The notes below the pieces were generated by a model. The model made no database searches, was not told the origin of the DNA, and saw only the letters and a program-made list of their open reading frames with translations. Below, in pieces: positions 28,744-42,293 of a stretch of 42,359 nucleotides of DNA. The DNA is from a bacterium (GTDB lineage Bacteria; Zixibacteria; MSB-5A5; WJJR01). The stretch spans positions 1 to 42,359 of the forward strand of contig DATMBC010000012.1 in the NCBI GenBank assembly GCA_035559435.1, given 5' to 3'. The stretch's first letter is position 1. The number at the start of each line of letters is the position of its first letter. The position numbers and the translations under genes are program-made.

Positions 28744-29340
28744 GGGACCGCTTGCACTGCACGACAGCTGACAGAATCAGCTCGGAGGGTGATTGCGCTC
28801 ACGAAGGGCACGCACCGTTGTATGCATGCCAGCGAGAGCGGAGAGTGCAGAAAACGCACCCACCCTACCGGGACAACAGGGCGCGTTGCATCGAGTGGCC
28901 CACGACGGCGCCATCGGGATTGACGGGAAGGCGGTTGCGCCGTGTGGCGCAGCAGCATACCGGCGGGCGGGCACGAAATGACCCGGACGGCCCCCCGTCG
29001 GTACGAGGGGCCGCCCTTGGTAGTGCCACGCGTGCAGGTGGCAGTTCAGGTCCGATTCTTCCCCGCTCCCTGCCGCGCGCTTTCAGGATAGGCAGGGGGT
29101 GTGACAGAACCTGTCAGTGGAAATTCGCGAAATCCAAAAAAAAACGCCCCGGTCCGGGGGAATCGGGCCGGGGCGGCGGAGTCGATGCAGCACTATCTCC
29201 ATCCGAAGTTGTGCGGCAAAGCGAAGGAACAAGGACTTGATTGGGAGGCCTCAAATCGGCCAATGCTAAACTGATCGCCGGCACCGAAATCGTGCTTGAC
29301 GAATTTGCCTGCGAGGGGCTGTTTTTGTCGGAGAGGCGAC
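28744..29340. other. Noncoding stretch with hairpins before the methyltransferase gene
   Basis: About 600 bases without a credible gene; the open frame across it is Arg/Gly/Pro-rich and family-less. It contains hairpins at 28988-29013 (10 bp with one mismatch, CGGT loop), 29024-29043 (6 bp) and 29102-29116 (6 bp), and the terminator-like 29136-29175. The base composition drops toward the right, marking the edge of the lower-GC island. Confidence 0.5.
29136..29175 (-). terminator. Textbook-shaped minus-strand terminator without an obvious gene
   Basis: Read on the minus strand, 29175-29164 pairs with 29156-29145 (12 bp, one mismatch, 7-base loop) followed by nine T (29144-29136). The only sequence it could terminate is the roughly 165 bases up to the start of the divergent methyltransferase gene, or antisense transcription from inside that gene. 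Confidence 0.6.
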
Positions 29341-30951
29341 ATGGCAGACGGCAACACACTCTATTACGGCGATAATCTCGAAATTCTGCGCCGCTACATC
29401 GCTGACGAATCGGTGGATCTGATCTATCTCGACCCACCTTTCAACAGTGCGCAGGATTACAACGTGTTGTTCAAGGAACAGGACGGTTCTCGAGCGGCGT
29501 CCCAGATCAAAGCGTTTGAGGATACGTGGCGCTGGGATGAAGCGGCGGCCTTGGCGTTTCAAGAGACTGTGGAGCGCGGAGGGCAGGTGTCCCGGGCTCT
29601 GTTGGGATTCCGATCGTTTCTCGGCGATACGGACATGCTCGCGTATCTGTCGATGATGGCCCCGCGATTGGTCGAATTGCGGCGAGTGCTCAAGCCAACG
29701 GGGAGCATCTATATGCATTGTGATCCTACAGCCAGCCATTATCTCAAGATGCTCATGGATTCTATCTTCGGACCGGACCAATTCCTAAACGAGATTATCT
29801 GGCAGCGGTCTACGCCGAAGGGACATGCATTCACTCGATACGCGAGCTCCCATGATGTTCTGTTGTTCTATGCTCGGGACAAATCCGCGACACGCTGGAA
29901 TCCATCGTTTCTCCCGCACAACGAGAAGTACCTCGAGAGTCATTACAATCGTATCGACACCGACAACGGTAGGCGGTACCGTCTCGACAACTGCCTGAAT
30001 CCAAATCCGAATCGCCCAAACCTAACCTATGAGTGGAACGGGCTGACGCGCGTATGGCGCTGGACAAAGGAGAGAATGCAGCGCTTGCATGATGAAGGAC
30101 GGCTCGTTTATTCAAAGTCGGGAATGCCCCAGTACAAGCGCTATCTGGACGAAATGACGGGCACTCCCGTTACAAGTGTCTGGACCGACATCCCCCCGAT
30201 CAATTCTCAAGCTGCTGAACGACTCGGCTACCCCACCCAAAAGCCGGAAGCGCTCTTAGAGCGAATCCTGTCGGCGAGCTGTAACGAGGGCGATACCGTG
30301 CTCGATCCGTTTTGCGGATGCGGGACAACAATCGCCGCCGCTCAGAAGCTCAAGCGGCGCTGGATCGGCATAGACATCACTCACTTGGCGATTACTCTGA
30401 TCCGGCATCGGTTGCATGATTCATTCGGGGATTCGGTCCAGTACAAGGTCATCGGAGAGCCAGTTTCGGTCGCGGATGCTCAAGCGCTCGCCGTGGCGGA
30501 CCGCTTCCAATTCCAATGGTGGGCACTTGGTCTGGTGGACGCCAGGCCCATCGAGCAGAAGAGGGGCGCGGATCAGGGGATCGATGGTCGCCTCTACTTC
30601 CACGATGAAGGTCCGAAAGGCACGACGAAGCAGATCATTCTGTCTGTGAAGAGCGGTGGGGTTTCGGTCAAAGATGTTCGCGACCTTCGGGGAGTCATTG
30701 ACCGCGAGAAGGCCGCAATCGGCGTCCTCATCACTCTTGAGGATTCGACCAAGCCGATGCGTTCTGAAGCGGCGAGCGCGGGATTCTACAATTCGCCGTG
30801 GGGAACAAAGCATCCTGTCTTGCAGATCCTGACAATCGAGGAGCTGCTAGACGGAAAAGGCATCGACTACCCACACCACACAAACAAGACCTTCAAGCAG
30901 GCGCCGCGAAAGAAGACCGGGGATAAGAGCAAGCAGGGGGAAATGCTGTAG
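29341..30951 (+). CDS. DNA methyltransferase (N4/N6 type) fused to a C-terminal Mrr-like nuclease domain
   Basis: A 536-residue protein; GGAGAGG precedes ATG 29341, which trims 15 residues from the longest frame. The methylase part has catalytic motif DPPF (31-34) before PTQKP (298-302) and the AdoMet-binding DPFCGCGTT (322-330). This is the beta-class order of site-specific N4-cytosine/N6-adenine methylases of type III Mod-like proteins. Between them lies the target-recognition region (about 150-290). Residues about 385-510 read as a PD-(D/E)xK domain of the Mrr kind: GADQGIDG (409-416) then IILSVKSG (432-439), with Asp415 and Lys437 as candidate active residues. No separate restriction or specificity subunit is adjacent. 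Its base composition is clearly lower in GC than its neighbours, suggesting transfer. Confidence 0.85.
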   Translation: MADGNTLYYGDNLEILRRYIADESVDLIYLDPPFNSAQDYNVLFKEQDGSRAASQIKAFEDTWRWDEAAALAFQETVERGGQVSRALLGFRSFLGDTDMLAYLSMMAPRLVELRRVLKPTGSIYMHCDPTASHYLKMLMDSIFGPDQFLNEIIWQRSTPKGHAFTRYASSHDVLLFYARDKSATRWNPSFLPHNEKYLESHYNRIDTDNGRRYRLDNCLNPNPNRPNLTYEWNGLTRVWRWTKERMQRLHDEGRLVYSKSGMPQYKRYLDEMTGTPVTSVWTDIPPINSQAAERLGYPTQKPEALLERILSASCNEGDTVLDPFCGCGTTIAAAQKLKRRWIGIDITHLAITLIRHRLHDSFGDSVQYKVIGEPVSVADAQALAVADRFQFQWWALGLVDARPIEQKRGADQGIDGRLYFHDEGPKGTTKQIILSVKSGGVSVKDVRDLRGVIDREKAAIGVLITLEDSTKPMRSEAASAGFYNSPWGTKHPVLQILTIEELLDGKGIDYPHHTNKTFKQAPRKKTGDKSKQGEML

Positions 30952-31451: not shown

Positions 31452-31604
31452 ATGTCAGAAACTAGAGATCAAGCCTCGCCACCGTCACCGCCGCCGCCTC
31501 CGTCGCCACCACCTCCGCCACCTCCACCAGCACCCGTACAGGGGATACAAGGTCAGTTGGTGACGGAGGCCTTTGTGCCCCCGGCTCGGTCAAAAATCAC
31601 TTAA
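31452..31604 (+). CDS. Proline-rich small protein (50 residues)
   Basis: ATG 31452 lies 9 bases after a perfect AGGAGG. The frame runs 50 codons to TAA at 31602-31604. The product has a short charged start (MSETRDQAS), then a tract of about 17 residues that is almost all proline with two serines, then a non-repetitive tail (APVQGIQGQLVTEAFV, ending RSKIT). It has no signal peptide or membrane segment. Its stop overlaps the end of the convergent membrane-protein gene by 8 bases. I know no family for it; the ribosome binding site and defined tail argue that it is translated. It belongs to the lower-GC island. Confidence 0.55.
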   Translation: MSETRDQASPPSPPPPPSPPPPPPPPAPVQGIQGQLVTEAFVPPARSKIT

Positions 31605-32190
31605 GTGACCATGCGAGCGGGAAGGCCAGCAACACCCAGATAGCTGCGGCATACAGCAGCCAGTACGCACGCCGGACGGCAGCTCCTGTGCTATGAGTGT
31701 CTTCGGCACGGGCATGTGCAGACTCGGAGATCGCCGCTGCGACCTTGCCCATGACCTCATTTGACGCATAGTCAGGTCCGTATGCTTTTGCTATCCGGTC
31801 AATGTCGATGATGTCGGGTAGTGCTGGCCGCTTCCTTGGTGTCTGTGCCCGTAGCGCGAGGGCGCCCGACACCGCAGCAAGCGCCATTCCAATCCACAGC
31901 ACCAGAATAAGGTGACTCGTGTTATGATCTGGCAGCTGAGTCATCGCGGCCGCGAGGATTGAAATGACTGCGACGGCATAGCCGGCGGCACGATCGGCTT
32001 TTGACCAGACGTTCGTTTGGGCTTCACGGGCTATCGAGTGACACTTCAATGCGTGCTCATAAATCCATCGATACTCAATGTCCTTCGATGGTATGAATTC
32101 CTCATTGAAATTATGAAGGTCTTCCAATGAATGTACGCCGGCTCTCGGTGAATTCTTCGGCATCCCCAATACCCTCCGCAACAGACTCAT
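31597..32190 (-). CDS. Three-helix membrane protein, possibly SLATT/Pycsar-effector-like
   Basis: A 197-residue protein; GGAGG lies 3 bases before ATG 32190, preferred over an upstream extension to 32370 that is not conserved-looking. An N-terminal soluble helical part (about 20-66) leads to TM1 (about 68-86), preceded by KADRAA, and TM2 (about 93-113). A cytosolic stretch with charged helices (about 118-172) leads to TM3 (about 174-195). This pattern of two helices, a helical insert and a last helix resembles the SLATT domain and the Pycsar effector PycTM, which kill infected cells by damaging the membrane. I cannot confirm family membership and no nucleotide cyclase lies nearby. It sits beside a restriction-modification-like gene in a low-GC island, so a defence role is plausible inference. 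Confidence 0.55.
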   Translation of the reverse strand: MSLLRRVLGMPKNSPRAGVHSLEDLHNFNEEFIPSKDIEYRWIYEHALKCHSIAREAQTNVWSKADRAAGYAVAVISILAAAMTQLPDHNTSHLILVLWIGMALAAVSGALALRAQTPRKRPALPDIIDIDRIAKAYGPDYASNEVMGKVAAAISESAHARAEDTHSTGAAVRRAYWLLYAAAIWVLLAFPLAWSLK

Positions 32191-32405
32191 TTGCCTCCAT
32201 GGCCGTTCCGTAAGACTTACGTTGCAACCCGTCTTAGTGCGGGATTTTTCAGGGCGTGTGGCCTTGGGTGTGACGCTGCGCCGAGCTGCTCTTGCGCCCA
32301 GATCGACCAAGCAGCAAGCCAGGGTACGCTCGCTCCCCGCAAAGGAATTACCAACCCTGTCACCAGCCACCCTGCTTCGCTAGAGCTACGCAGGGCAGAC
32401 GCCTC

Positions 32406-33545
32406 TCACCAAGTCAGAAGCCAGGTGGTGGTGTTGGGGACGGTGATCTTGCGGCGGAGGATCGCGCCGTTGGTGTAGCGGATCTCGAATTCGTAGCGGG
32501 TGGCGTCCGGTGTCAGAAGCTCGCTGGGATACAGATCGAGGTACCAATAGCCGAGCGAATCGGTGGTGGTGCGGCGTTCGTAGGGGGAGATGATGATGCC
32601 CTGGTACCGGAGGGGCGTTTCGGCGATGCGGGCGCGGACTTCGGCGCCGGCGATCTGCCCGGAGGAGAGATCCTGCACCCAGCCATAGACACGGCACAAT
32701 GACGCGGTCGCCGGTGTCCCGGGGTCGAGATTATATCCCAAGATCAGCAGAGTGTCCGGTGACGCGCCGGCGGTTGTCGTAAGCGACGTGATGGGCCACA
32801 CATAGCCGACGAGCGCCGGCACGGCGACGTAGGCGGTCGCCGCGTTCACCGCAAAGACAATTCGTCCCGGCGGCAGGGCTCTCCCCTGCGCGAGATTGGC
32901 GCTTTGCCCGGCATCCTTAAGCGAGACGAGAACGTCGGGGATTGTGTCATCGACGCCCGATGTGTCAATCAGATACACGACCAGCGACTTTGTCCCGGCG
33001 CCCAGCCCGACATCGCCGAGGCGCGCCAGCGAATTCCCCTCGCTCCAGCGCAACGAACGCAGGACCGAGTCGCGCTGGCTGTCGCTCCAGTTGGAGTTGA
33101 AGTACTGGTCATCGAGGTAGTCGGTGAAATCGGCGGTGGTGTAGAGCGTGAAGGCGCCATGCCAGGCGGTCTCGAGGTCGGCGCCGGTGTTGTCCTGCAC
33201 GGTCAGCACATAGCGATAGATACCGTTGGTGCCGGCGCCATCGAGGTTGGCGACGGCGTCACGGAAGGTGTAGGCCTCGCCGCGATCAAAGTCCTCCCAG
33301 TCGGCGGCGGTGATCCGGGCGTTGCTGTGGGCCATCGAGTCGCGGTGGCAGAGCGCGCCCGACGGCCCAAAGACCAGCAGGTAGATCGAATCCCCGGCCG
33401 CCAGCGCCACCGGCCGTCCGAGGGAGTCGAGACATTGGAAGGTGATGGCAAGCGAGTCCTGCGCGGCTGTGCCTGCGTTGTTGAGGATGACGGCGTGAGC
33501 GGGCAAGGCGGGAAGAAGCAGCAGCAGTGTTAACAGTATGCGCAT
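32406..33545 (-). CDS. Signal-peptide protein with carboxypeptidase-regulatory-like C-terminal domain
   Basis: A 379-residue protein, last of the capsid-operon series. The N terminus (MRILLTLLLLLPALPAHA) is a classic signal peptide with an AxA site. Residues about 20-145 are beta-rich (DSIYLLVFGPSGA, YRYVLTVQDNTG), residues about 145-270 are mixed, and the C terminus (about 280-379) contains YGWVQDLSSGQIAGAEVRA, TTTDSLGYWYLDLYP and YEFEIRY. The C-terminal pattern is that of carboxypeptidase-regulatory-like beta-sandwiches, often found in phage fibres and surface proteins. No ribosome binding site is evident before the ATG; the gap to the upstream gene is 90 bases. A fibre or decoration role is an inference from position. 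Confidence 0.65.
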   Translation of the reverse strand: MRILLTLLLLLPALPAHAVILNNAGTAAQDSLAITFQCLDSLGRPVALAAGDSIYLLVFGPSGALCHRDSMAHSNARITAADWEDFDRGEAYTFRDAVANLDGAGTNGIYRYVLTVQDNTGADLETAWHGAFTLYTTADFTDYLDDQYFNSNWSDSQRDSVLRSLRWSEGNSLARLGDVGLGAGTKSLVVYLIDTSGVDDTIPDVLVSLKDAGQSANLAQGRALPPGRIVFAVNAATAYVAVPALVGYVWPITSLTTTAGASPDTLLILGYNLDPGTPATASLCRVYGWVQDLSSGQIAGAEVRARIAETPLRYQGIIISPYERRTTTDSLGYWYLDLYPSELLTPDATRYEFEIRYTNGAILRRKITVPNTTTWLLTW

Positions 33546-33635
33546 GGCGTTCGGTTCTCGATTCGCAATCCATCGCAGGGGCGGGTCTGAGATCCGGCCC
33601 GGTTTTCTGGTCCCGAGGATGAACGTGCGCGGGAC

Positions 33636-34220
33636 TCAGCGCGGGGTGGCGATGAGACGACGGCGCGGGGGCGGGCCGAGGGTTGGTGTGTAGGTGACAT
33701 AGATCGACATGCGGAAACTAGCGGCGCCGGAGGAGGGATTGAGCGTAACGGGGACGCCGGATTCGTAATTGGCATTCTTCGACACCAGCGTTGCGCCGCC
33801 GGAACTGACGCCGACACGCGCCAAACCGGCGCCGGTGGCGCCGGCGGTGTCGGCGAAGATGGCGATCAGGTAGGTGGTGTTGGCATTGATGGCGGGCTTG
33901 GGATCGGCGAAGGCGAAGCCCTGCCAAATGAAGGCGGCGTTGGCGGCGAAGCGGCGTTCGACGCTGACCCCGCCTGCGACCAGCACGGTGTCGGAGCCGG
34001 CGATCGTGTAGAGCGCGGCGCGCGCCTTGCAGGAGTCGAGGTTGAACTTCAGGTAGGCGGTGATCGAATCGCAGCGGCCGGATTGCGACGGCGTGCCGGC
34101 AACCGCGGCGACCACATCTTTGACGGTGAAGTTGGTGCTGTAGGCGGTCGGATCGCCGAAAGTGACCGCCGTGGCGGTGGCGGTGAAGGCCAGGAAGGCG
34201 ATGATCAGGCGGGGCAGCAT
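33636..34220 (-). CDS. Signal-peptide beta-sandwich-like protein in the capsid operon
   Basis: A 194-residue protein with a signal peptide (MLPRLIIAFLAFTATATA). The mature part is beta-rich: CDSITAYLKFNLDSCKARAALY, NTTYLIAIFADTAG and RMSIYVTYTP resemble a jelly-roll carbohydrate-binding or exported structural domain. It ends with a basic tail (PPPRRRLIATPR). It is 36 bases downstream of the 95-residue helical gene, on the same strand. Family unrecognised. A signal peptide is odd for a virion protein. Confidence 0.6.
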   Translation of the reverse strand: MLPRLIIAFLAFTATATAVTFGDPTAYSTNFTVKDVVAAVAGTPSQSGRCDSITAYLKFNLDSCKARAALYTIAGSDTVLVAGGVSVERRFAANAAFIWQGFAFADPKPAINANTTYLIAIFADTAGATGAGLARVGVSSGGATLVSKNANYESGVPVTLNPSSGAASFRMSIYVTYTPTLGPPPRRRLIATPR

Positions 34221-34256
34221 GGCAATGGTGTGAGAGGATGGAAAACCATTCGCGGC

Positions 34257-34544
34257 TCAGCGTGCGTCTTCTTCCCTGTCCGACGGGGCGACGGGCGCGG
34301 ATGTGTCGCGCGCAAGTTCCTCGCGGCGCATCTCATCGATCAGCCGCCAGAAGGTGGCTTCGGCATCGACGGTCGGCTGGAGTTTGGCGCGGAATTCGAG
34401 CAGACGGACAAAGTCGGCGAGTTTGACATTCAACTCGGCGCCTTCCAGTTCCTGCTCGCAGCGTTCGATCAACCGTTCGATGGCGGCCAGGTCGCGCGCG
34501 ATCGAGCGCGGGGCGATTGCGGAGTCATCGAGATGGATGCGCAT
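34257..34544 (-). CDS. Small helical protein of the phage-like module
   Basis: A 95-residue protein, almost all predicted alpha-helix and strongly charged (RDLAAIERLIERCEQELEGA, FVRLLEFRAKLQP, FWRLIDEMRREELARD). It has no signal peptide. It lies 16 bases after the 124-residue gene, as expected for one operon. Such short coiled proteins occur among phage chaperone and connector genes, but I cannot assign one. Confidence 0.5.
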   Translation of the reverse strand: MRIHLDDSAIAPRSIARDLAAIERLIERCEQELEGAELNVKLADFVRLLEFRAKLQPTVDAEATFWRLIDEMRREELARDTSAPVAPSDREEDAR

Positions 34545-34560
34545 GCGGAAAGCGAAAGGG

Positions 34561-34935
34561 TCAGTCGCGGGCCTCGATGATCCAGAGGTCGACCAGGGCG
34601 AGCTCGGCGGTGCCGGCGGTCTTGGCGATGCGGAAGCCCGACGGTGTCGGCGGGGCGGACAGCGCGACCGGGATGGCGTTGCGGAGAATCGGAATCACCA
34701 CCGGCGCGGCGATGGTGGCCGGCAGCGGGTTGCCGCGATGATCGACCAGCGACGCGAAGGCCACCTCCTGCGGCGTCCCGGCCACCGCAAACTGATAGAA
34801 GACGACGCGGCGTCCGGTTCCTTCGGTTTCGGCGCCGAGCGCGGCGATGGTGTCGGTGTGCAACTGGCCATGCACCGCCAGGTCGCGCACCAGCCAGGCG
34901 CGACGGGCGTTGAGGAGGGTGAAGGTGGAGTTCAT
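34561..34935 (-). CDS. Small unknown protein of the phage-like module
   Basis: A 124-residue protein with a helical start (FTLLNARRAWLVRDLAVHG) and a beta-rich remainder ending LALVDLWIIEARD. It has no membrane segment or signal peptide. It lies 30 bases downstream of the 274-residue gene. I do not recognise it; position suggests a structural or connector component. Confidence 0.5.
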   Translation of the reverse strand: MNSTFTLLNARRAWLVRDLAVHGQLHTDTIAALGAETEGTGRRVVFYQFAVAGTPQEVAFASLVDHRGNPLPATIAAPVVIPILRNAIPVALSAPPTPSGFRIAKTAGTAELALVDLWIIEARD

Positions 34936-34965
34936 GGGGCAAGGGGACGGATGGGCCGATGGGGC

Positions 34966-35790
34966 TTATCCGCGTTGAAGCGGTGCGCGGGCGGCGACGG
35001 GGGCGGCGTAGCGAGAGAGGAACGTGCGCGCGGAGCGATCGTATTGGGCGGCGATCTCCAGCCACAGTTGCGCGGCGGCGCGTGCGGCCGGCGCGCCGGT
35101 GCTCGCATCCGCCAGCACGGCCGCGGCGCGCATGCGCGCCAATTGCGCCACCGCCAGGTGCGTGGCGCCGACCACCACCCCGGGCGCGGGAGCGTCATGG
35201 TAGACCGGCGCGACAATCTGCAGGGCCAGCTCCCCCGATTCAGCGATGGCCTGATCGATGATGGTGTCGGAGACGGCGCCGAGGGCGACGGTGTAATCGA
35301 CCAGCACCTCCTGGCCATCGGCGATCGCGCCATCGGCGCGGCGTGTCAATTCGCCGCGCGCCGTGTCGACGGTATAGTCCTCTCCCTCGCTGTAGAGATG
35401 ATAGTGGAGATACCAGACGGCGACGGTCTGGCCGGCGGCGATCGCGCCATTAACCAGACGGCGGATCCGTCCGCCGGGCGCGTCGACGATGTAATCGACA
35501 TTCTCGCTGAACCACCGGCCGAGCGAACTGTCGGCGGCGATCAGCACGGTGCCTGGGATCAATTGGGCATGACTGAGGATGGCCCAACCGGCATCGAGCG
35601 TTCGCCATTCGAGCGTCGGGGCGAAGTCGCGCGGGGCCTTGACGATCACCGAGCCAGTCGCCAGGCCGGCATGCGGGAACGCCGCGGGGATGTCGCCGCT
35701 GAGCACCACCGGGACGGCGCGGATCGGGACTTCGCCGAGGCTGGCGAAAGTGAGATGAGCGCGTACGAGATCGCGGGAGGTGAAGGACAT
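34966..35790 (-). CDS. Phage-type structural protein with duplicated beta motif
   Basis: A 274-residue protein. Two consecutive copies of a motif are visible (about 95-128 and 134-167), each D-Y-x-V-D-x-x-x-G-x-x-x-R-x-x-x-G-A-I-A-x-G-Q-x-V-x-V: VDYIVDAPGGRIRRLVNGA, then EDYTVDTARGELTRRADGA. Similar motifs occur in head-tail and tail proteins of tailed phages. The last 80 residues are helical (LAVAQLARMRAAAVLAD, AQLWLEIAAQYD). It has no signal peptide. A head-tail connector or neck role is an inference from order and motif; the family is unconfirmed. Confidence 0.55.
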   Translation of the reverse strand: MSFTSRDLVRAHLTFASLGEVPIRAVPVVLSGDIPAAFPHAGLATGSVIVKAPRDFAPTLEWRTLDAGWAILSHAQLIPGTVLIAADSSLGRWFSENVDYIVDAPGGRIRRLVNGAIAAGQTVAVWYLHYHLYSEGEDYTVDTARGELTRRADGAIADGQEVLVDYTVALGAVSDTIIDQAIAESGELALQIVAPVYHDAPAPGVVVGATHLAVAQLARMRAAAVLADASTGAPAARAAAQLWLEIAAQYDRSARTFLSRYAAPVAARAPLQRG

Positions 35791-35815
35791 GGGAATCTCT
35801 GTGCGTGGCGCGGTA

Positions 35816-37234
35816 TCAGATGGAGACCGCGGTCAGTTCGGTCACGGCGGTGATCTGTGTGCCGATTGGGACAGTGGCGTAAGGTGAGCCGCACAGCGCA
35901 CGCAGCCAGAACTGATGCGCGCCTTGGAGCGTGTGTTTCTGCCAATCGGCGGGGATGGCGAGGGTGTCGCTGAAGAGACGCACCCCGGCATTGGCGGAGT
36001 CGAAATGATACGGGCCGGAGGCGGGGACAAATTCGCTCCACGAGGCGCCGTTCCAGTACGCCCAGGTCACCGTGCCGCCTGCGCCGCTTTGCGAGAGGAT
36101 GACGCGAACGAAATCGAAGCGATCGGCGGCGCCCAGGTAGAGCGCATCGCCCGCCGCCGCCAGCAATGCGCCGGAGGCCGGGTGAACGATATCGGCAACG
36201 GAGCTCGACGCGGCGGCCGCGGTCAGGTCGGCGAAGGGTATGGGGGCGTCGGAATCAAAACAGAAGACGGCGGCGAAGGCCGGCTGTTCGCTTAAGACCG
36301 GCTCGGGCGCCACAAATGCGTTGCCGCTGCGGTGGGTGGCATAGAGTCGGTTCTGATCGGCGCCGACGTTGCGCAGGAAGAAGGCGTAGGGCAACAAGTC
36401 AAGATAGCGAAGGATGGGCGCGACGGCGGGTTGAGCGGCGACGGTCTGCAAGGCGCCCCAGGTTGCACCATCGTACTCCTTCAGAACCAATTGCCCCTCG
36501 GCGGCAAAGAGCGCGCCGAGCCGTCCATCGGCGGCGACCGCGCCGGTGATGTCGGCGCCGAGACCGGAGCCGGTGTAGAGCAGATCGGCCGGATCCCAGA
36601 GTGTGGCATCGAGCGTGATGCGGCGATGACGCGCCTCGGTTCCGTTCACCGTATAGAGGCAATGCAGATGAGTCGGACGCGGCGCAAGATGTGGGAAGAC
36701 GGCGCTGACGGTGCCGGACAGATCGGTTCCCGGATCGGCCGTGCCCGCGCCCCAGGTGGCGCCGTCATCGCTTGAGGACTTCACCCGCAGCGAGATGGCG
36801 CCGGCATCATCGCGCGCCCAGGCAATCCAGAGACGATTGTAAGCATCAAGTGTGATGGACGGCTGACGATTGGCCGACGACGCCGAATCGAAGACCGTGA
36901 CCGGGGTCTGCGGCGCCCAGGCGCCATTCAGATGCGCGAGACGGACCACACGCAGCGCGGCGGTTCCGGATTGTGTGTAGGCGACGGTGACATGGCCATC
37001 ACGATCGATCACCGCATCGAAGGGCAGGTCATCCGATTCGGTGAGAAAGTCGACCGGGTCGGTCCAAGCGGTATGCGGCGGATCGGACCAGCACAGGGCC
37101 AGATTGGACGGTGTGCGCGCAAACAGCGCGAGGAGCCGTCCGGCATACGCGCCGTGGGCGAGACGGAAGATCCGTTTCTGCGTCGGCAGACCGGCGGGGA
37201 ATTGGGCGGTGGAGGTGTCGAGGAGGATGTGCAT
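35816..37234 (-). CDS. Beta-propeller-like (BNR/sialidase-type) protein of the phage-like module
   Basis: A 472-residue protein from ATG 37234 (the longer frame adds 12 unrelated residues). It is built of repeated beta blades: ARTPSNLALCWSDPPHTAW, DGHVTVAYTQSG, RQPSITLDAYNRLWIAWARDD, SSSDDGATWGAG and DGRLGALFAAEG. The SxDDGxTW phrase is an Asp-box-like BNR mark. The C-terminal 100 residues form a beta-sandwich-like tail (TVTWAYWNGASWSEF, QFWLRALCG). There is no signal peptide and the ribosome binding site is weak. A receptor-binding or fibre role is likely if the element is phage-derived. Confidence 0.6.
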   Translation of the reverse strand: MHILLDTSTAQFPAGLPTQKRIFRLAHGAYAGRLLALFARTPSNLALCWSDPPHTAWTDPVDFLTESDDLPFDAVIDRDGHVTVAYTQSGTAALRVVRLAHLNGAWAPQTPVTVFDSASSANRQPSITLDAYNRLWIAWARDDAGAISLRVKSSSDDGATWGAGTADPGTDLSGTVSAVFPHLAPRPTHLHCLYTVNGTEARHRRITLDATLWDPADLLYTGSGLGADITGAVAADGRLGALFAAEGQLVLKEYDGATWGALQTVAAQPAVAPILRYLDLLPYAFFLRNVGADQNRLYATHRSGNAFVAPEPVLSEQPAFAAVFCFDSDAPIPFADLTAAAASSSVADIVHPASGALLAAAGDALYLGAADRFDFVRVILSQSGAGGTVTWAYWNGASWSEFVPASGPYHFDSANAGVRLFSDTLAIPADWQKHTLQGAHQFWLRALCGSPYATVPIGTQITAVTELTAVSI

Positions 37235-37272
37235 GAGCGATGGGATTGCGGAGTGTGCGGGTGCCCTCACCC

Positions 37273-37565
37273 GCTCTGCTCCGCAGAGCGACCTCCCCCA
37301 GAGGGGGAGGTGAACGTCCTATTCAGAAGAACCGGATGCTCTTGGGGAGGGTGAGCCCCGAAGGTGGCGAGCCGCGCGCGGCGTGGGGCGCGAGAAGAGC
37401 AGGCCCAGCACCTCCGGGCTTCGCCCTCCCCGAGAGCGAATGTCAATGTGATGTAAGCAGAAAAGGCGGCGGGCGGGGCCCGCCCTGCAGGTTAGTTCAA
37501 CATGGACGGAAAAGAGTTCGCCTCTGCCTGAGGGAGAGGCCGCCTCACGCCGATGGGCGTGAGGC
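37273..37565. repeat. Cluster of intergenic palindromes inside the capsid operon
   Basis: The 344-base gap between the capsid and propeller genes holds perfect palindromes at 37273-37289 (GCTCTGC/GCAGAGC), 37292-37110+ range 37292-37310 (CCTCCCCC/GGGGGAGG) and 37542-37565 (10 bp, 4-base loop), and further GC-rich inverted words between them. The start (CCTCACCC...) resembles a fragment at about 21219-21257. Such palindromes are usual in chromosomal intergenic DNA and unusual inside a working phage head operon. Confidence 0.65.
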
Positions 37566-37578
37566 GGGTGAGGGGTCG

Positions 37579-38682
37579 CTACGGCCAGACGGTGTCGAGG
37601 GCTTTGGCGGCGTCGGGAATGACCTTGGCGTAGGCGACCGATTCGGAGATCACCGCCTCCTCGAAGCGCTGCTCGATAATCTTGTCGTATTCGACGGTGA
37701 GCGGCTGGGTGATGACCTCCTCGGCGGCAAAGCGGCGATCGATGCCGATGACCAGATCGGCGGGGACTTCATCGGAGCGCACCAGCGAGGCGCCGATCGG
37801 GCTGACCAGTTCGCCGGTGCTCTGAAACCGGAACCCGGCGTTGGCGTCCTTGAATTCATCCATGGTGAGGATGGCGGCCAGCTTCGCCTTACCGCAGATC
37901 AGCGTGTTCATCTCGAACGGATGCAGTTCCGACCAGAAGGCGACGAGGTCATCGTAGGTGAAGGCGCCGGAGACGGCGGTGTTGATCACGTCGGCCGGAT
38001 TGTCGTTGCCGTCGCCGTTGAGCAGGACATCGACCAGCAATCCGAGTTTGTCGACCTGCATGCGGTAGCCAATGTACCAGAGCAGCACCTTGAACTGCGG
38101 CATGGTGCGGTGACGCAGGGCCTTGTACGAGGCCTTGAGCGCCAGGCCATAGTCGGGAATGTCGATCGAGTTGACCCGTTCGGTGACCACCACCGCCGGG
38201 ACATGGGCGCCATCGCCGGTCGGACGCAGCGACCATTTCGGATCGGTGACGGCGGCATCGACATCGAAGGGGGTGTAGCGGCTGGCGGTGATGCGCGAGG
38301 TGGCGCCGACCAGGCCGGCCAGCTCGGGCCGCATCGCCATGCCGGCGCGGATTTCGCGCATCATGAATTCGGGCAAAAGCGCCGGCGCGCCGCGATGGAA
38401 CAGCTCGACGGTGACCGGGTTGGATCCACCGACACGCAGTCCGCGCGCGGCCAGTTGCCGTTCGAAGGCATCCAGCGGGCTGTCGGCGGGGCTGGGGTCG
38501 AAGTCGGGGGACTCGAGCAGCTCGGAGAGGGTCAGGCCGCGCGACTCGGCTTCAAGGTAGGTGTCGCGGGTGATGGACAGTTGACGGGCGCGTCGCAGAT
38601 CGACGGGGCCACCGGACGGATCGGCGGATGCGCGCGCCAGCAGGTCGGCGGGTGGATCGGAGAGAAGTTTATCGAGGTCCAT
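37579..38682 (-). CDS. Major capsid protein (HK97-fold-like)
   Basis: A 367-residue protein; AAGGA lies 5 bases before ATG 38682. The N-terminal 90 residues are helical and charged (DLRRARQLSITRDTYLEAES), as in HK97-type delta or pre-capsid regions. The body shows the usual order for this class: LLPEFMMREIRAGMAMRP; a beta/E-loop-like region; IDIPDYGLALKASYKALRHR; then a spine-like helix with LGLLVDVLLNGDGND; then the A-domain (NTLICGKAKLAAIL, GIDRRFAAEEVI) and the final strand. It lies downstream of a prohead protease, two small genes and a decoration-like gene, as in a phage head module. I know of no non-phage protein with this layout except encapsulins, which are shorter. Confidence 0.65.
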   Translation of the reverse strand: MDLDKLLSDPPADLLARASADPSGGPVDLRRARQLSITRDTYLEAESRGLTLSELLESPDFDPSPADSPLDAFERQLAARGLRVGGSNPVTVELFHRGAPALLPEFMMREIRAGMAMRPELAGLVGATSRITASRYTPFDVDAAVTDPKWSLRPTGDGAHVPAVVVTERVNSIDIPDYGLALKASYKALRHRTMPQFKVLLWYIGYRMQVDKLGLLVDVLLNGDGNDNPADVINTAVSGAFTYDDLVAFWSELHPFEMNTLICGKAKLAAILTMDEFKDANAGFRFQSTGELVSPIGASLVRSDEVPADLVIGIDRRFAAEEVITQPLTVEYDKIIEQRFEEAVISESVAYAKVIPDAAKALDTVWP

Positions 38683-38745
38683 GGGGTCCTTGGGGCGGCG
38701 CAAGCGGCTGAAAGCCCCTTGCGCGCGTGGAGAGTGTGTTGAGGA

Positions 38746-39168
38746 TCAATTCAGCAGGATGATGCAATCGGTGGCGCCGTTGACGGCCAGCACGGTGCCG
38801 CGGGCGGTGGTGCCGCCGGCGGGATCGTTGCCGGTGAGACCGGGCGCCTGCTTGACCGTGGCGTTGGCGGCGCAGACGACGCGCTCGCCGACCGACGGAA
38901 ACGGCGCACCGATGGGCAGTCGGCAGACGCCGGCGATCTGCACGGTCGCGAGACGGCGTCCGGTGTCGCGGTCTTCGTGCCTCAGGTCGATGAGTTTGCC
39001 GATCAGCACGGCGTTGTCGCCGCCGGGGCCGACTTCATTGGAGTCGGTGAGCGTGACCGCGCGGCCGATGTGGGAGTCATCGAGGTCATCGACGCCGGCG
39101 GTCTGCTTGACTTTGAAGGTGGCGTAGAGTTCGCCGATCGAGTCGAGGTTGTGATCGCGGATGGGCAT
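38746..39168 (-). CDS. Capsid decoration-like protein
   Basis: A 140-residue soluble beta-rich protein; AGAGGA lies 6 bases before the ATG. It has no signal peptide or membrane helix. Phrases such as GRAVTLTDSNEVGPGGDNAVLIGKL, VQIAGVCRLPIG and GTVLAVNGATDCIIL match the small barrel proteins (DUF2190-like and cement proteins) encoded directly upstream of capsid genes in many phages. It lies 63 bases before the major capsid gene. The decoration role is inferred from position and shape. Confidence 0.55.
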   Translation of the reverse strand: MPIRDHNLDSIGELYATFKVKQTAGVDDLDDSHIGRAVTLTDSNEVGPGGDNAVLIGKLIDLRHEDRDTGRRLATVQIAGVCRLPIGAPFPSVGERVVCAANATVKQAPGLTGNDPAGGTTARGTVLAVNGATDCIILLN

Positions 39169-39179
39169 GGGGGTTCCTC

Positions 39180-39455
39180 TCAGCGGGTACGGAATTCATG
39201 GTTGGCGGTGACCGTCGGCCCGCCGGGGATGGGGAGCCGTGCCGCGCGCGGCCGGGCGGCGGCATCGAGCGCGCGGTCGACCCGTTCGGCCAGGGCCCAG
39301 AGCGCGGCGGCGTCATTGCCGCAAGTATCCAGTTCCTGGTCGATAGCCTCCGGGTCGGGCGGGCCGCCCTGGAGGCGTTGCAGGGCGATGAAGCGGCGAC
39401 GGATGCGTTCGGAAAGGCGGGAGCGGATGATCTCCCAGTTGGTGTCGGCGGGCAT
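39180..39455 (-). CDS. Small helical protein of the phage-like module
   Basis: A 91-residue protein; AAAGGA lies 5 bases before ATG 39455. It is helical and charged (WEIIRSRLSERIRRRFIALQ, DAAALWALAERVDRALDAA), with a Pro/Arg-rich tail. It lies 11 bases before the decoration-like gene. It may be a scaffold-like or accessory head protein; no family is recognised. Two hairpin repeats (39473-39592) separate it from the membrane/coiled-coil gene. Confidence 0.5.
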   Translation of the reverse strand: MPADTNWEIIRSRLSERIRRRFIALQRLQGGPPDPEAIDQELDTCGNDAAALWALAERVDRALDAAARPRAARLPIPGGPTVTANHEFRTR

Positions 39456-39472
39456 GTGGTCCTTTCGGGGGA

Positions 39473-39519
39473 AACAAAGATTGCTTCGTCCCGCCAAGAG
39501 CGCGGGACTCGCAATGACG
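39473..39519 (+). repeat. Hairpin repeat, copy 5 (inside the capsid operon)
   Basis: It opens AACAAAGATTGC and closes GCAATGACG. ATTGC pairs with GCAAT and GTCCCGC with GCGGGAC around loop CAAGAGC. Compared with the other copies, the terminal stem has changed from ATTCC/GGAAT to ATTGC/GCAAT on both arms, a compensatory change. Confidence 0.8.
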
Positions 39520-39548
39520 GATGACGCGGAGTGGTGCGTGGGGGCTTG

Positions 39549-39592
39549 AACAAAGATTCCAAGCCGGCAAAGAGCGCCGGCCTGGAATGACG
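39549..39592 (+). repeat. Hairpin repeat, copy 6 (inside the capsid operon)
   Basis: 39556-39568 pairs with 39576-39588 (13 bp, one mismatch) around loop AAAGAGC, with AACAAAG and TGACG outside. It is 29 bases after copy 5 and the shortest-stemmed of the family. Confidence 0.8.
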
Positions 39593-39638
39593 GAGTGTGG
39601 CATGATCGGCGTTGCGAGGTGGAGACCGGCCATCGCTG

Positions 39639-39905
39639 TCAGCGCGACTCGAGGAGAGTCTCGATGCGGGTCAAGCGGTTGTCGAGGGCGGCGCGCAGTT
39701 CGAGAAGGTCGGTCTGGCGCGCGATGTCGGTGCGCAGGAGCGTTTCGATGGTGACCAGGCGGCGGTCGATCTGCTCGACGGTGGCGCGGTCGGCTTTTTC
39801 GCTGACGGTCAGACGGATGCCATAGACGGTGGTGTAGTACGCGGCCAGCGCGCCGGCGACGATTAGCACGATCGATGCCAGCGGCTTGATCCAGTTGTTG
39901 TTCAT
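39639..39905 (-). CDS. Membrane-anchored coiled-coil small protein (holin- or spanin-like)
   Basis: An 88-residue protein. The start codon overlaps the protease stop (ATGA, 39902-39905), so translation is coupled; GGGAGG lies upstream. One N-terminal membrane helix (about 8-25, LASIVLIVAGALAAYYT) is followed by a heptad-like region (VEQIDRRLVTIETLLRT, LLELRAALDNRLTRIETLLE). Proteins of this shape serve as phage holin or lysis accessory proteins, or tether scaffolds. Its place between protease and capsid genes is unusual for a lysis gene. Confidence 0.55.
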   Translation of the reverse strand: MNNNWIKPLASIVLIVAGALAAYYTTVYGIRLTVSEKADRATVEQIDRRLVTIETLLRTDIARQTDLLELRAALDNRLTRIETLLESR

Positions 39906-40684
39906 TGTGCCTCCCATTGCGGCGGGGGCCCATGGCCGCGCCGGAGTTGCGGACGCGGCCATGGGGTGTGACGGGCGGGACAGTGGTAGGCAGACAGAGC
40001 GCGGGAGGTTGAGGGGGACACCCGGAGAAGGGTGGGAAGGTCGGAGTTAATGGCCGCGTCCCGGTCGGAGAAGAGCGGATAATGAACGATTCGTGTGCCG
40101 GGCGTCGCGCCGCGGTAGACCAGCGAGGTTTCGAGCACCCGCTGGATGCCGCGGTACTCGTAGTGGGCGACGACGCCGTCGTAGGCGCGTCCGGGGATGT
40201 GCTCGCAGGCGCGGATGTCTTGCCCGCAGAGAGCGCAGCGGGGGTGTTCGAAGACAAACCCGATCGAGCCCTCCTTGACGATGCCGGCGTCGATGTCGCA
40301 GGCGAGTTGGTCGTGGAGCGGCCCCTCGCCGCGCCGCCAGTAGAACCAGGATTCGACCCAGGCGCGCTTACCATCGTCAACACAACGGGCGGCGAAATTG
40401 CGCGCCACCGGCAGACGGCGATGGTCATGGCCGATCAGGACGGGCGAATCGACCAGCAGTTCGCAGAGACGGGCATGCTCATCGCGCGGGAAGCAGCCGC
40501 CGAGATCGTTGATGCCATCGGAGACGACGCGCAGGGCGCGGATGTGCAACAGATCGAGCGAGAGAGGCGTCGGCGGCTGGATGCGCTCGTTGATCAGGGC
40601 GGCGAGACGTTCGCGCGCGGTGTCAGCGGCCAGCGACACGCCGCCGGTGGCCGCGGCCAGTTGGCCGTACAGGAGTGACTTCAT
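39902..40684 (-). CDS. Prohead (capsid maturation) protease-like protein with zinc-knuckle-like insert
   Basis: A 260-residue protein. The pattern of phage prohead proteases (HK97-type, families U35/S78) is visible: LIGHDHRRLPVARN with candidate catalytic His86 or His88, then KEGSIGFVFE with candidate Ser140, then VLETSLVYRGATPG, the usual ...EVSLV..xAxP end of the core. After Ser140 comes C150-x2-C153-x6-C160-x-H162, a zinc-binding-like insert (CALCGQDIRACEH). The C-terminal 60 residues are Ser/Pro/Arg-rich and not family-like. It is first in the operon; portal and terminase, which normally precede it, are absent, and no strong ribosome binding site is seen. Confidence 0.6.
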   Translation of the reverse strand: MKSLLYGQLAAATGGVSLAADTARERLAALINERIQPPTPLSLDLLHIRALRVVSDGINDLGGCFPRDEHARLCELLVDSPVLIGHDHRRLPVARNFAARCVDDGKRAWVESWFYWRRGEGPLHDQLACDIDAGIVKEGSIGFVFEHPRCALCGQDIRACEHIPGRAYDGVVAHYEYRGIQRVLETSLVYRGATPGTRIVHYPLFSDRDAAINSDLPTLLRVSPSTSRALSAYHCPARHTPWPRPQLRRGHGPPPQWEAQ

Positions 40685-40871: not shown

Positions 40872-42293
40872 TTGATTTCGAAGACCGGGGCCGCGGCCGC
40901 CCCTGACACGGCCGCCAAAACCATCGACGTATCCGGGGATTTCGCCTCGTTTGGATTGCATCCCGACTTGCTGCGCGGGGTCGCCGACCTGGGGTTTCGC
41001 ACCGCGACGCCGATTCAGCGCGACGCCATCCCGCCGGCGCTGGAGGGACGCGATGTCCTGGCCTGCGCGATGACCGGGTCGGGGAAGACGGCCGCTTTTG
41101 TCCTGCCGATTCTGCACCAACTGCTGGGGAAGCGTCGCCGCACCACACGCGCGCTGATCCTCACGCCGACCCGCGAACTGGCGGCGCAGATTGCCGAACA
41201 TCTGGAACTTCTGGCGACCCACACGCCGCTGTCGAGCGCGGCGGTCTTCGGCGGGGTCGGCATGGGACCGCAGGAGCACGCGTTCCGTGTGGGCGTCGAT
41301 GTGATCGTGGCCACGCCGGGACGTCTTCTGGATCACTTTCAGTATCCGTACGCGAAGCTGGCCGGGCTGGAGATTCTCGTGCTCGACGAGGCCGACCGGA
41401 TGCTGGACATGGGCTTTCTGCCCGACATCCGGCGGGTGCTGGACCATCTGCCGCCGCGCAAGCAGACATTGTTCTTCTCGGCGACGCTGCCGCCGCCGAT
41501 CGTCGAGTTGGCGCGCGAGATGCTGAAGAATCCGGTGGCGATCAACATCGACCGCAAGTCGGCGCCGGCGACCGGGATCGCGCAGGCGGTCTATCCGGTG
41601 CGCCGCGATTTGAAGTCTCCCCTGCTTCTGGAACTGATCCGTCAGGGCTCGATCAAGAGCGCGCTGGTGTTCACCCGGACCAAGCACCGTGCCAACCGTC
41701 TGGCGGAGTACCTGCAGAAGCACGGAGTTCGTTGCGAACGCATTCACGGCAACCGCAGCCAGAACCAGCGCACCGAAGCGCTGGAGGGATTCAAGAAAGG
41801 GAAATTCCCGGTGCTGGTGGCCACCGACATCGCGGCGCGCGGAATCGACGTCGAGGCGCTGTCGCATGTGGTCAACTTTGATGTGCCGGAGATGCCGGAA
41901 AGCTACATCCACCGGGTGGGACGAACCGCGCGGGCTGCGATGACCGGGGATGCGTTGACGTTTGTCGCGCCGGAGGAGGAGTCCGACCTGCGCGCGATTG
42001 AGAAGGCGGTCGGACAGAGGCTGCCGCGGCTGACGCTGGCGGGGTTCGACTACAACGCCAAGGCGCCGGAAAAGCTGGAAATCCCGCTGCACGAGCGGAT
42101 TGCGGCGATCAAGACACGCAAGGCGGCGGAGCGGGAACGCTCGCGGGCCAAGGAAAAACGGCGTGTGCCCGCGGCCCCGGTGTCAAAACCGGCGGCGCCG
42201 GCGAAACCAAAACCGGCCGGCGGCGGTTATGGACGCCGTACGAGCAAACCGGCCGGACGGCGCGGTCCGGGCAAACCACGGCGCGCCGCTTAA
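40872..42293 (+). CDS. rhlE: DEAD-box ATP-dependent RNA helicase, RhlE type
   Basis: A 473-residue RNA helicase acting in ribosome assembly and mRNA turnover. Motifs in order: Q-motif region FGLHPDLLRGV...ATPIQ (27-49), Walker A AMTGSGKT (66-73), PTRELA (99-104), TPGR (148-151), DEAD (172-175), SAT (203-205), HGNRSQNQR, ATDIAARGID and HRVGRTAR. A basic Lys/Arg/Pro tail (about 405-473) is typical of RhlE. The only usable start in frame before the Q-motif is TTG 40872, with GAGG 4 bases upstream. A TATACT (40806-40811) and a 6-bp hairpin (40828-40842) lie in the leader, which would suit cold-shock control, though that is an inference. Confidence 0.92.
   Translation: MISKTGAAAAPDTAAKTIDVSGDFASFGLHPDLLRGVADLGFRTATPIQRDAIPPALEGRDVLACAMTGSGKTAAFVLPILHQLLGKRRRTTRALILTPTRELAAQIAEHLELLATHTPLSSAAVFGGVGMGPQEHAFRVGVDVIVATPGRLLDHFQYPYAKLAGLEILVLDEADRMLDMGFLPDIRRVLDHLPPRKQTLFFSATLPPPIVELAREMLKNPVAINIDRKSAPATGIAQAVYPVRRDLKSPLLLELIRQGSIKSALVFTRTKHRANRLAEYLQKHGVRCERIHGNRSQNQRTEALEGFKKGKFPVLVATDIAARGIDVEALSHVVNFDVPEMPESYIHRVGRTARAAMTGDALTFVAPEEESDLRAIEKAVGQRLPRLTLAGFDYNAKAPEKLEIPLHERIAAIKTRKAAERERSRAKEKRRVPAAPVSKPAAPAKPKPAGGGYGRRTSKPAGRRGPGKPRRAA

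Follow-up and report, generated by a model that had tools for sequence, protein, structure and literature searches.

What do phage head genes do in a bacterial genome when no portal, terminase or tail gene stands beside them? This question is raised by the window analyzed here, a stretch of 42,359 bases representing the entire contig DATMBC010000012.1 (C12) of the Zixibacteria genome GCA_035559435.1 (G000; about 3.0 Mb in 106 contigs). Zixibacteria hosts are known here from assembled genomes only. At positions 32406 to 40684 the window encodes a phage-type capsid module, which the initial annotation regarded as devoid of packaging genes and interpreted as a decayed prophage, a capsid-using satellite, a gene-transfer-agent (GTA) fragment or a domesticated shell. 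Our analysis indicates that the module is probably the head part of an ancient, vertically inherited, tailless GTA-type element of the Zixibacteria, with phage-derived DNA packaging and genes that are often split over several loci.

Head and packaging genes across the phylum

The open reading frames (ORFs) of the module were found where the initial annotation had placed them, all on the minus strand, intact and closely spaced, with mostly short gaps. GC and GC3 match the host, as the annotation had also proposed. PHROG, Pfam and matches to a Tepidibacter prophage (see below) confirmed that a prohead-protease-like protein, a decoration-like protein and a major capsid protein (MCP) are encoded in this order. 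No portal, terminase or tail genes were seen on the window contig, and to this extent the annotation stands. For the genome it does not: contig C63 carries one intact portal gene (33512-34636, E = 2e-89) and, adjoining it, one intact gene for the large terminase TerL (34813-36108, E = 6e-112). A portal/terminase pair elsewhere in the element had been named beforehand as the observation that refutes a capsid module without packaging genes, and this claim has to be abandoned for the genome.

Relatives give the same picture. We fetched 60 clusters and annotated them by iterated profiles. The initial annotation had proposed to look among relatives for the same operon without packaging genes. In 35 of the 60 clusters, portal and TerL immediately precede the protease gene. 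Several other genomes have them 18 kb to 1.3 Mb away from the MCP gene or on a separate contig, the distance being 1.3 Mb in the single-contig genome G108 and about 91 kb in G116. Portal and TerL belong to the same ancestral gene cluster as the capsid module, of which C63 carries a second locus. In the cluster L015, the portal matches phrog_3753 (1.3e-18), and TerL matches phrog_2 (1.2e-32) and PF03237 (4.1e-9, above the cut-off). The Walker A motif GNRWGKS of TerL, its Walker-B-like DE and its nuclease aspartates show no variation among ten diverse members.

The distribution was studied in 133 GTDB Zixibacteria genomes, 79 of which are of high quality (at least 90% complete, at most 5% contaminated). 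MCP was identified in 112 genomes (74 of high quality), TerL in 116 (72) and the portal in 113 (71). All three are single-copy in nearly all genomes, additional matches being mostly fragments. In 11 genomes without a TerL match, a search with the TerL profile still revealed none. Scanning a genome collection with MCP returned 35 loci, nearly all labelled Zixibacteria or GN15, with one Ignavibacterium and four labelled "bacterium"; wherever a locus is long enough to show it, the gene order is common, and in many of those extending far enough upstream, portal and TerL come before the protease. This order, nearly constant in 18 GTDB families, runs portal, TerL, protease, small proteins, decoration protein, MCP, propeller-like protein, duplicated-domain protein, 124-aa protein, 95-aa protein and two exported proteins (aa, amino acids). 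There are a few exceptions: some families have the 124-aa and duplicated-domain proteins in reverse order, and in the families f17-f19 the 95-aa gene is located between portal and TerL.

The cluster belongs to the host lineage and is vertically inherited. In the MCP tree (60 genomes), all 15 families represented at least twice come out as single clades; the family labels need 17 changes, which is the minimum (shuffled mean, 43.6). MCP and RpoB trees of 24 genomes have 16 of 21 splits in common, and the distance correlation of 0.80 was reached in 0 of 999 permutations. Moreover, chromosomal neighbors are common between families, e.g., lipA and others in f7, f8 and f10, and recN in f1 and f2. 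The initial annotation had suspected retention under selection and asked for the ratio of nonsynonymous to synonymous substitution rates (dN/dS). It amounts to approximately 0.02-0.5 (NG86) in all genes compared and is lowest for MCP, which indicates purifying selection, although several dS values are saturated; the unsaturated pair L103/L105 yields 0.02 for MCP, 0.12 for the decoration protein, 0.11 for the propeller-like protein and 0.19 for the second exported protein. Near-universal, single-copy head and packaging genes suggest that the phylum has retained an ancient viral head with which it packages its own DNA.

Some genomes deviate in detail. The protease of G130 (L105 / L001 = JACRMA010000111, L001:2727-3604) is split over two overlapping frames, unlike that of its close relative G131, due to a sequencing error or a real loss. 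In the single-contig genomes G027 and G080, MCP and TerL matches, respectively, are divided between two distant sites of the chromosome, separated by about 600 kb and 415 kb, reflecting either a rearrangement inside the cluster or a misassembly. G010 encodes exported repeat proteins between portal and protease.

Genes of the module and their phage relatives

The module starts with the protease gene (39902-40684; this and all following module genes on the minus strand). The 260-aa product is XkdF/S78-like (phrog_16951, 1.8e-15) with a conserved KE(C/G)SIGF motif, and its family profile matches the annotated XkdF-like protease of the Tepidibacter prophage (4.2e-19). A Pfam search of its own genome for Peptidase_S78 gave no match because the protease is too diverged. 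The window protein is a short form that lacks a C-terminal ligase domain, as do the other short proteases. In contrast, the proteases of f15 and f16 are extended by a domain of ATP-dependent DNA ligases (PF01068, 4.9e-27 in L006), which retains its KYDG motif and weakly resembles the LigD 3'-phosphoesterase. A degenerate homologous region is found in f2, f3, f7, f8, f9 and f10 and a residual one in f14, whereas detection in f11 and f12 is only marginal.

For the remaining genes, cluster counts refer to family hidden Markov models (HMMs; iterated profiles) over 61 clusters. Two small proteins follow the protease. The first (39639-39962, 107 aa), with an apparent N-terminal membrane segment and a coiled-coil-like part, a topology read from sequence, occupies this position in 52 of 61 clusters. 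The second (39180-39497, 105 aa), helical-looking and placed before the decoration gene, has an HMM match in 18; most families carry an ORF of about 137 aa at its position, homology being established for part of them only. The decoration-like capsid protein (38746-39168, 140 aa) is present in 59 of 61 clusters, and its family profile matches the small gene between protease and MCP both in the Tepidibacter prophage (2.4e-8) and in a gut scaffold (5.9e-6; see below).

The 374-aa product at 37579-38703 matches phrog_3922 "major head protein" (4.1e-54) and PF25209 (Phage_capsid_4; 2.9e-6, above the cut-off), and the profile of its family matches the Tepidibacter phage MCP (4.3e-87). We therefore predict, from sequence profiles, an HK97-type MCP. 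The initial annotation had proposed to check this fold by profiles and by structure. The former agree with it; the latter gave an unusable AlphaFold model (mean pLDDT 45), and an MCP profile search of the PDB returned no match.

Downstream, the propeller-like protein (35816-37270, 484 aa; 58 of 61 clusters), whose BNR match of 0.14 is sub-threshold, is a possible vertex or receptor-binding protein. The neck/tail-type structural protein at 34966-35790 (274 aa; 58 of 61 clusters) matches phrog_18315 (5e-8) and phrog_807 (5e-6). Its AlphaFold model (pLDDT 86.7) shows an N-terminal helix, a duplicated beta domain and three long C-terminal helices. The beta domains resemble phage tail proteins (Foldseek, phi812 baseplate, 5.3e-6; BFVD major tail protein, 1.4e-8) with low TM-scores, and hence we infer its role only as that of a candidate head-completion or adaptor (neck) protein. 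Compared with the gene after MCP in the Tepidibacter prophage, its profile reached only 0.01. The conserved 124-aa protein (34561-34935; 55 of 61 clusters), which matches no PHROG or Pfam family, is by position a possible further neck component. The helical-looking 95-aa protein (34257-34544; 47 of 61 clusters; no family match) is a candidate small terminase by position only, because of the place of its homologue between portal and TerL in f17-f19.

The last two products carry apparent signal peptides. The first (33636-34220, 194 aa) is weakly conserved, with an HMM match in 20 clusters. The second (32406-33545, 379 aa; 51 of 61 clusters) has a conserved C-terminal part and is fibre-like in relatives: signal-peptide-like N-termini occur in most families of this protein, and its L015 homologue contains tail-fibre-like repeats (phrog_892, 8.3e-7; CarboxypepD_reg, 0.001, sub-threshold).

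The module is bounded 187 bases upstream, as initially described, by a divergent flanking host gene outside the system, which encodes a RhlE-like DEAD-box helicase (40872-42293, plus strand; PF00270, 1.4e-48; PF00271, 1.5e-33). On the other side, 35 bases past the last module gene, a membrane protein (31597-32370) shows a weak similarity, below the cut-off, to the membrane domain of Pycsar effectors (PycTM, 2.5e-4). The window also encodes a DNA methyltransferase (29296-30951; N6_N4_Mtase, 9e-46) with a C-terminal Mrr-like domain of restriction-endonuclease type (Mrr_cat, 8e-8). PADLOC found no match for six proteins of the module region.

Outside the phylum, IMG/VR scans revealed no relative, and on plasmids MCP matched only Tepidibacter and, weakly, Deinococcus. 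The nearest annotated relative is a tailed prophage on the Tepidibacter hydrothermalis plasmid NZ_CP120734, with homologous portal (3.9e-28 against the Zixibacteria portal profile), XkdF-like protease, decoration-like protein and MCP in the same order. It differs in its small terminase, another TerL, tape measure, baseplate, holin and lysis genes, and its MCP is 35.5% identical. Since four head-gene profiles match Tepidibacter genes in order, the head module shares descent with XkdF-type tailed phages; TerL is of another lineage. Two gut scaffolds deposited as "Bacteriophage sp.", MT835508 (L161) and MT835952 (L162), encode an MCP of about 35% identity, TerS/TerL-like ORFs, portal and protease in phage order, in MT835952 also the decoration-like protein. 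However, these scaffolds contain bacterial chromosomal genes, e.g., for ribosomal proteins, and their TerL is not matched by the Zixibacteria TerL profile. Their DNA may have been packaged in GTA-like heads formed by Firmicutes of the gut.

A probable tailless element of gene-transfer-agent type and its rivals

GTAs are defined by particle proteins derived from tailed phages, by complete endogenization, often over several loci, by vertical inheritance and co-diversification with the host, by packaging of mostly random host DNA together with the inability to package their own whole gene set, and by delivery of DNA to other cells (PMC9662315). Three of these features are testable by sequence, and all three were found. 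MCP, portal, TerL and protease have phage profile matches, the genes are endogenized between chromosomal neighbors with portal and TerL distant or on another contig, and family monophyly and RpoB congruence argue for vertical inheritance. We therefore call the system GTA-like, without claiming it as a GTA. As it is split over distant loci in several genomes, it is likely unable to package its own whole gene set. Of the explanations initially offered, a GTA-type or domesticated element under selection has thus gained ground through single-copy conservation across the phylum, a host-congruent tree and low dN/dS.

We infer that particles form, package host DNA by the headful mechanism, are released and transfer it. 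A procapsid would be built around the portal from MCP, decoration protein and protease, and TerL, encoded at the second locus in the window genome, would fill it with host DNA; the 95-aa protein possibly serves as a small terminase of reduced size. The duplicated-domain and 124-aa neck-type proteins, perhaps together with the propeller-like protein, would close the vertex. The particle would then be released and deliver DNA to kin, possibly with the help of secreted fibre-like proteins. A more elaborate version assigns a role to the ligase. The prohead protease normally ends inside the procapsid; in a phylum-old GTA family without long tail, it might bring along a fused LigD-like ligase, which would mend or join the packaged ends inside the particle and would have decayed in most lineages, and secreted fibre-like proteins might form an attachment system on donor or recipient cells. 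We regard this combination as an unlikely, speculative extension.

The tail deserves separate consideration. By gene order, no tail module or tape measure was found in the 60 clusters, PF10145 (PhageMin_Tail) being the sole tape-measure family searched, so that a divergent or short tail may still be encoded. To this extent the initial statement that tail genes are lacking holds, and we regard the element as tailless, perhaps podovirus-like. PF10145 tape measures occur in only 9 of the 133 genomes. The only one of the window genome is located on contig C74, inside a contractile prophage (L165:300-18583), which has a major head protein of its own (phrog_1005, 9e-102) as well as genes for sheath, tape measure and fibres. 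Being part of a separate prophage with its own MCP, the C74 tail was rejected as a component of the system.

Several observations weigh against a GTA-type element. The system is known here from genes alone, so that particle, packaged DNA and transfer are deduced from them; no lysis gene was identified in the cluster, and as no tail was found, delivery is unexplained. The single-contig genome G010 (L114, L196) has portal and capsid cluster with no TerL found, and MCP, portal and TerL are all missing in G057, which is 98% complete. The TerL of the Tepidibacter prophage is not matched by the Zixibacteria profile, and the nearest MCP relatives outside the phylum, the gut scaffolds and Tepidibacter, are only about 35% identical, which places the ancestor at a distance.

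The rival that survives best, albeit with a rather small chance, is a domesticated, DNA-filled capsid with another role, e.g., DNA release, killing of relatives, DNA storage or a repair compartment, and possibly never released. It would account for a cluster without identified tail or lysis genes in a phylum where the tape-measure family is rare, for the DNA-ligase-like domain fused to some proteases with its weak LigD-type 3'-phosphoesterase similarity, and for signal peptides on fibre-like proteins. However, the retained portal, TerL and neck-type protein point to a standard packaged and closed head, and short-tailed delivery systems may be small and hard to recognize.

Much less probable are helper-dependent, satellite-like heads that borrow the tails of co-resident prophages. 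The contractile-tail prophage on C74 would be a possible donor in the window genome, but PF10145 is rare in the phylum compared with a capsid system found in more than 110 genomes. Furthermore, this system is near single-copy and host-congruent, unlike mobile satellites, and the satellite explanation of the initial annotation is not supported.

We give slightly less credit still to an encapsulin-like closed compartment that stores non-DNA cargo, with portal and TerL as bystanders. In other cases, encapsulins have arisen by domestication of HK97-type capsid proteins, yet encapsulins require no portal, terminase or protease. All three are co-conserved here instead of a bare shell, portal and TerL together with MCP phylum-wide and adjacent to the module in more than half of the fetched clusters.

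Least probable of all, and apparently already refuted as far as genome data allow, is a prophage, decayed as initially considered or active, that repeatedly infects Zixibacteria: every recognized component does come from tailed-phage head genes, but the single copy, family monophyly, RpoB congruence, low dN/dS and common chromosomal neighbors reveal neither a sporadic distribution nor a non-host phylogeny, and in the cluster neither tail nor tape-measure genes were found (gene order in 60 clusters, PF10145 only), nor was a relative in IMG/VR.

If a GTA-type element is the correct explanation, DNA packaging of phage origin can, over very long times, become as stable as core genes are, even without a recognizable long tail, and horizontal exchange across a whole uncultured phylum becomes directly testable. 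MCP, portal, TerL and protease provide a marker set for detecting such elements in uncultured phyla.

Comparison with known gene-transfer agents

We found no earlier description of such a system from Zixibacteria in the open-access literature that could be searched, a body without most subscription journals. Of the GTA groups whose genetic basis is known, only three have been evaluated for formal recognition (PMC9662315). RcGTA and the other recognized GTAs (Rhodogtaviriformidae, Bartogtaviriformidae and Brachygtaviriformidae; PMC9662315) resemble the Zixibacteria system in their Caudoviricete-derived structural genes, endogenization, often over several loci, vertical inheritance and purifying selection. 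In contrast to the Zixibacteria system, which has no tail module found and is described from its genes, they form particles with tails, and transfer by them has been demonstrated (RcGTA tailspike, PMC13420450; BhGTA tail, PMC9662315). Conversely, conservation of the Zixibacteria system extends over an entire GTDB phylum and not just over part of a class, and some families show a protease-ligase fusion.

By description and not by sequence, the system also resembles FpGTA of Faecalibacterium (PMC12946183), a compact terminase-portal-capsid operon without identifiable tail that was called podovirus-like and has a second operon about 125 kb away. For FpGTA, unlike for the Zixibacteria genes, particles and packaged DNA of about 9 kb have been shown; a compact, tailless-looking element can thus package DNA (PMC12946183).

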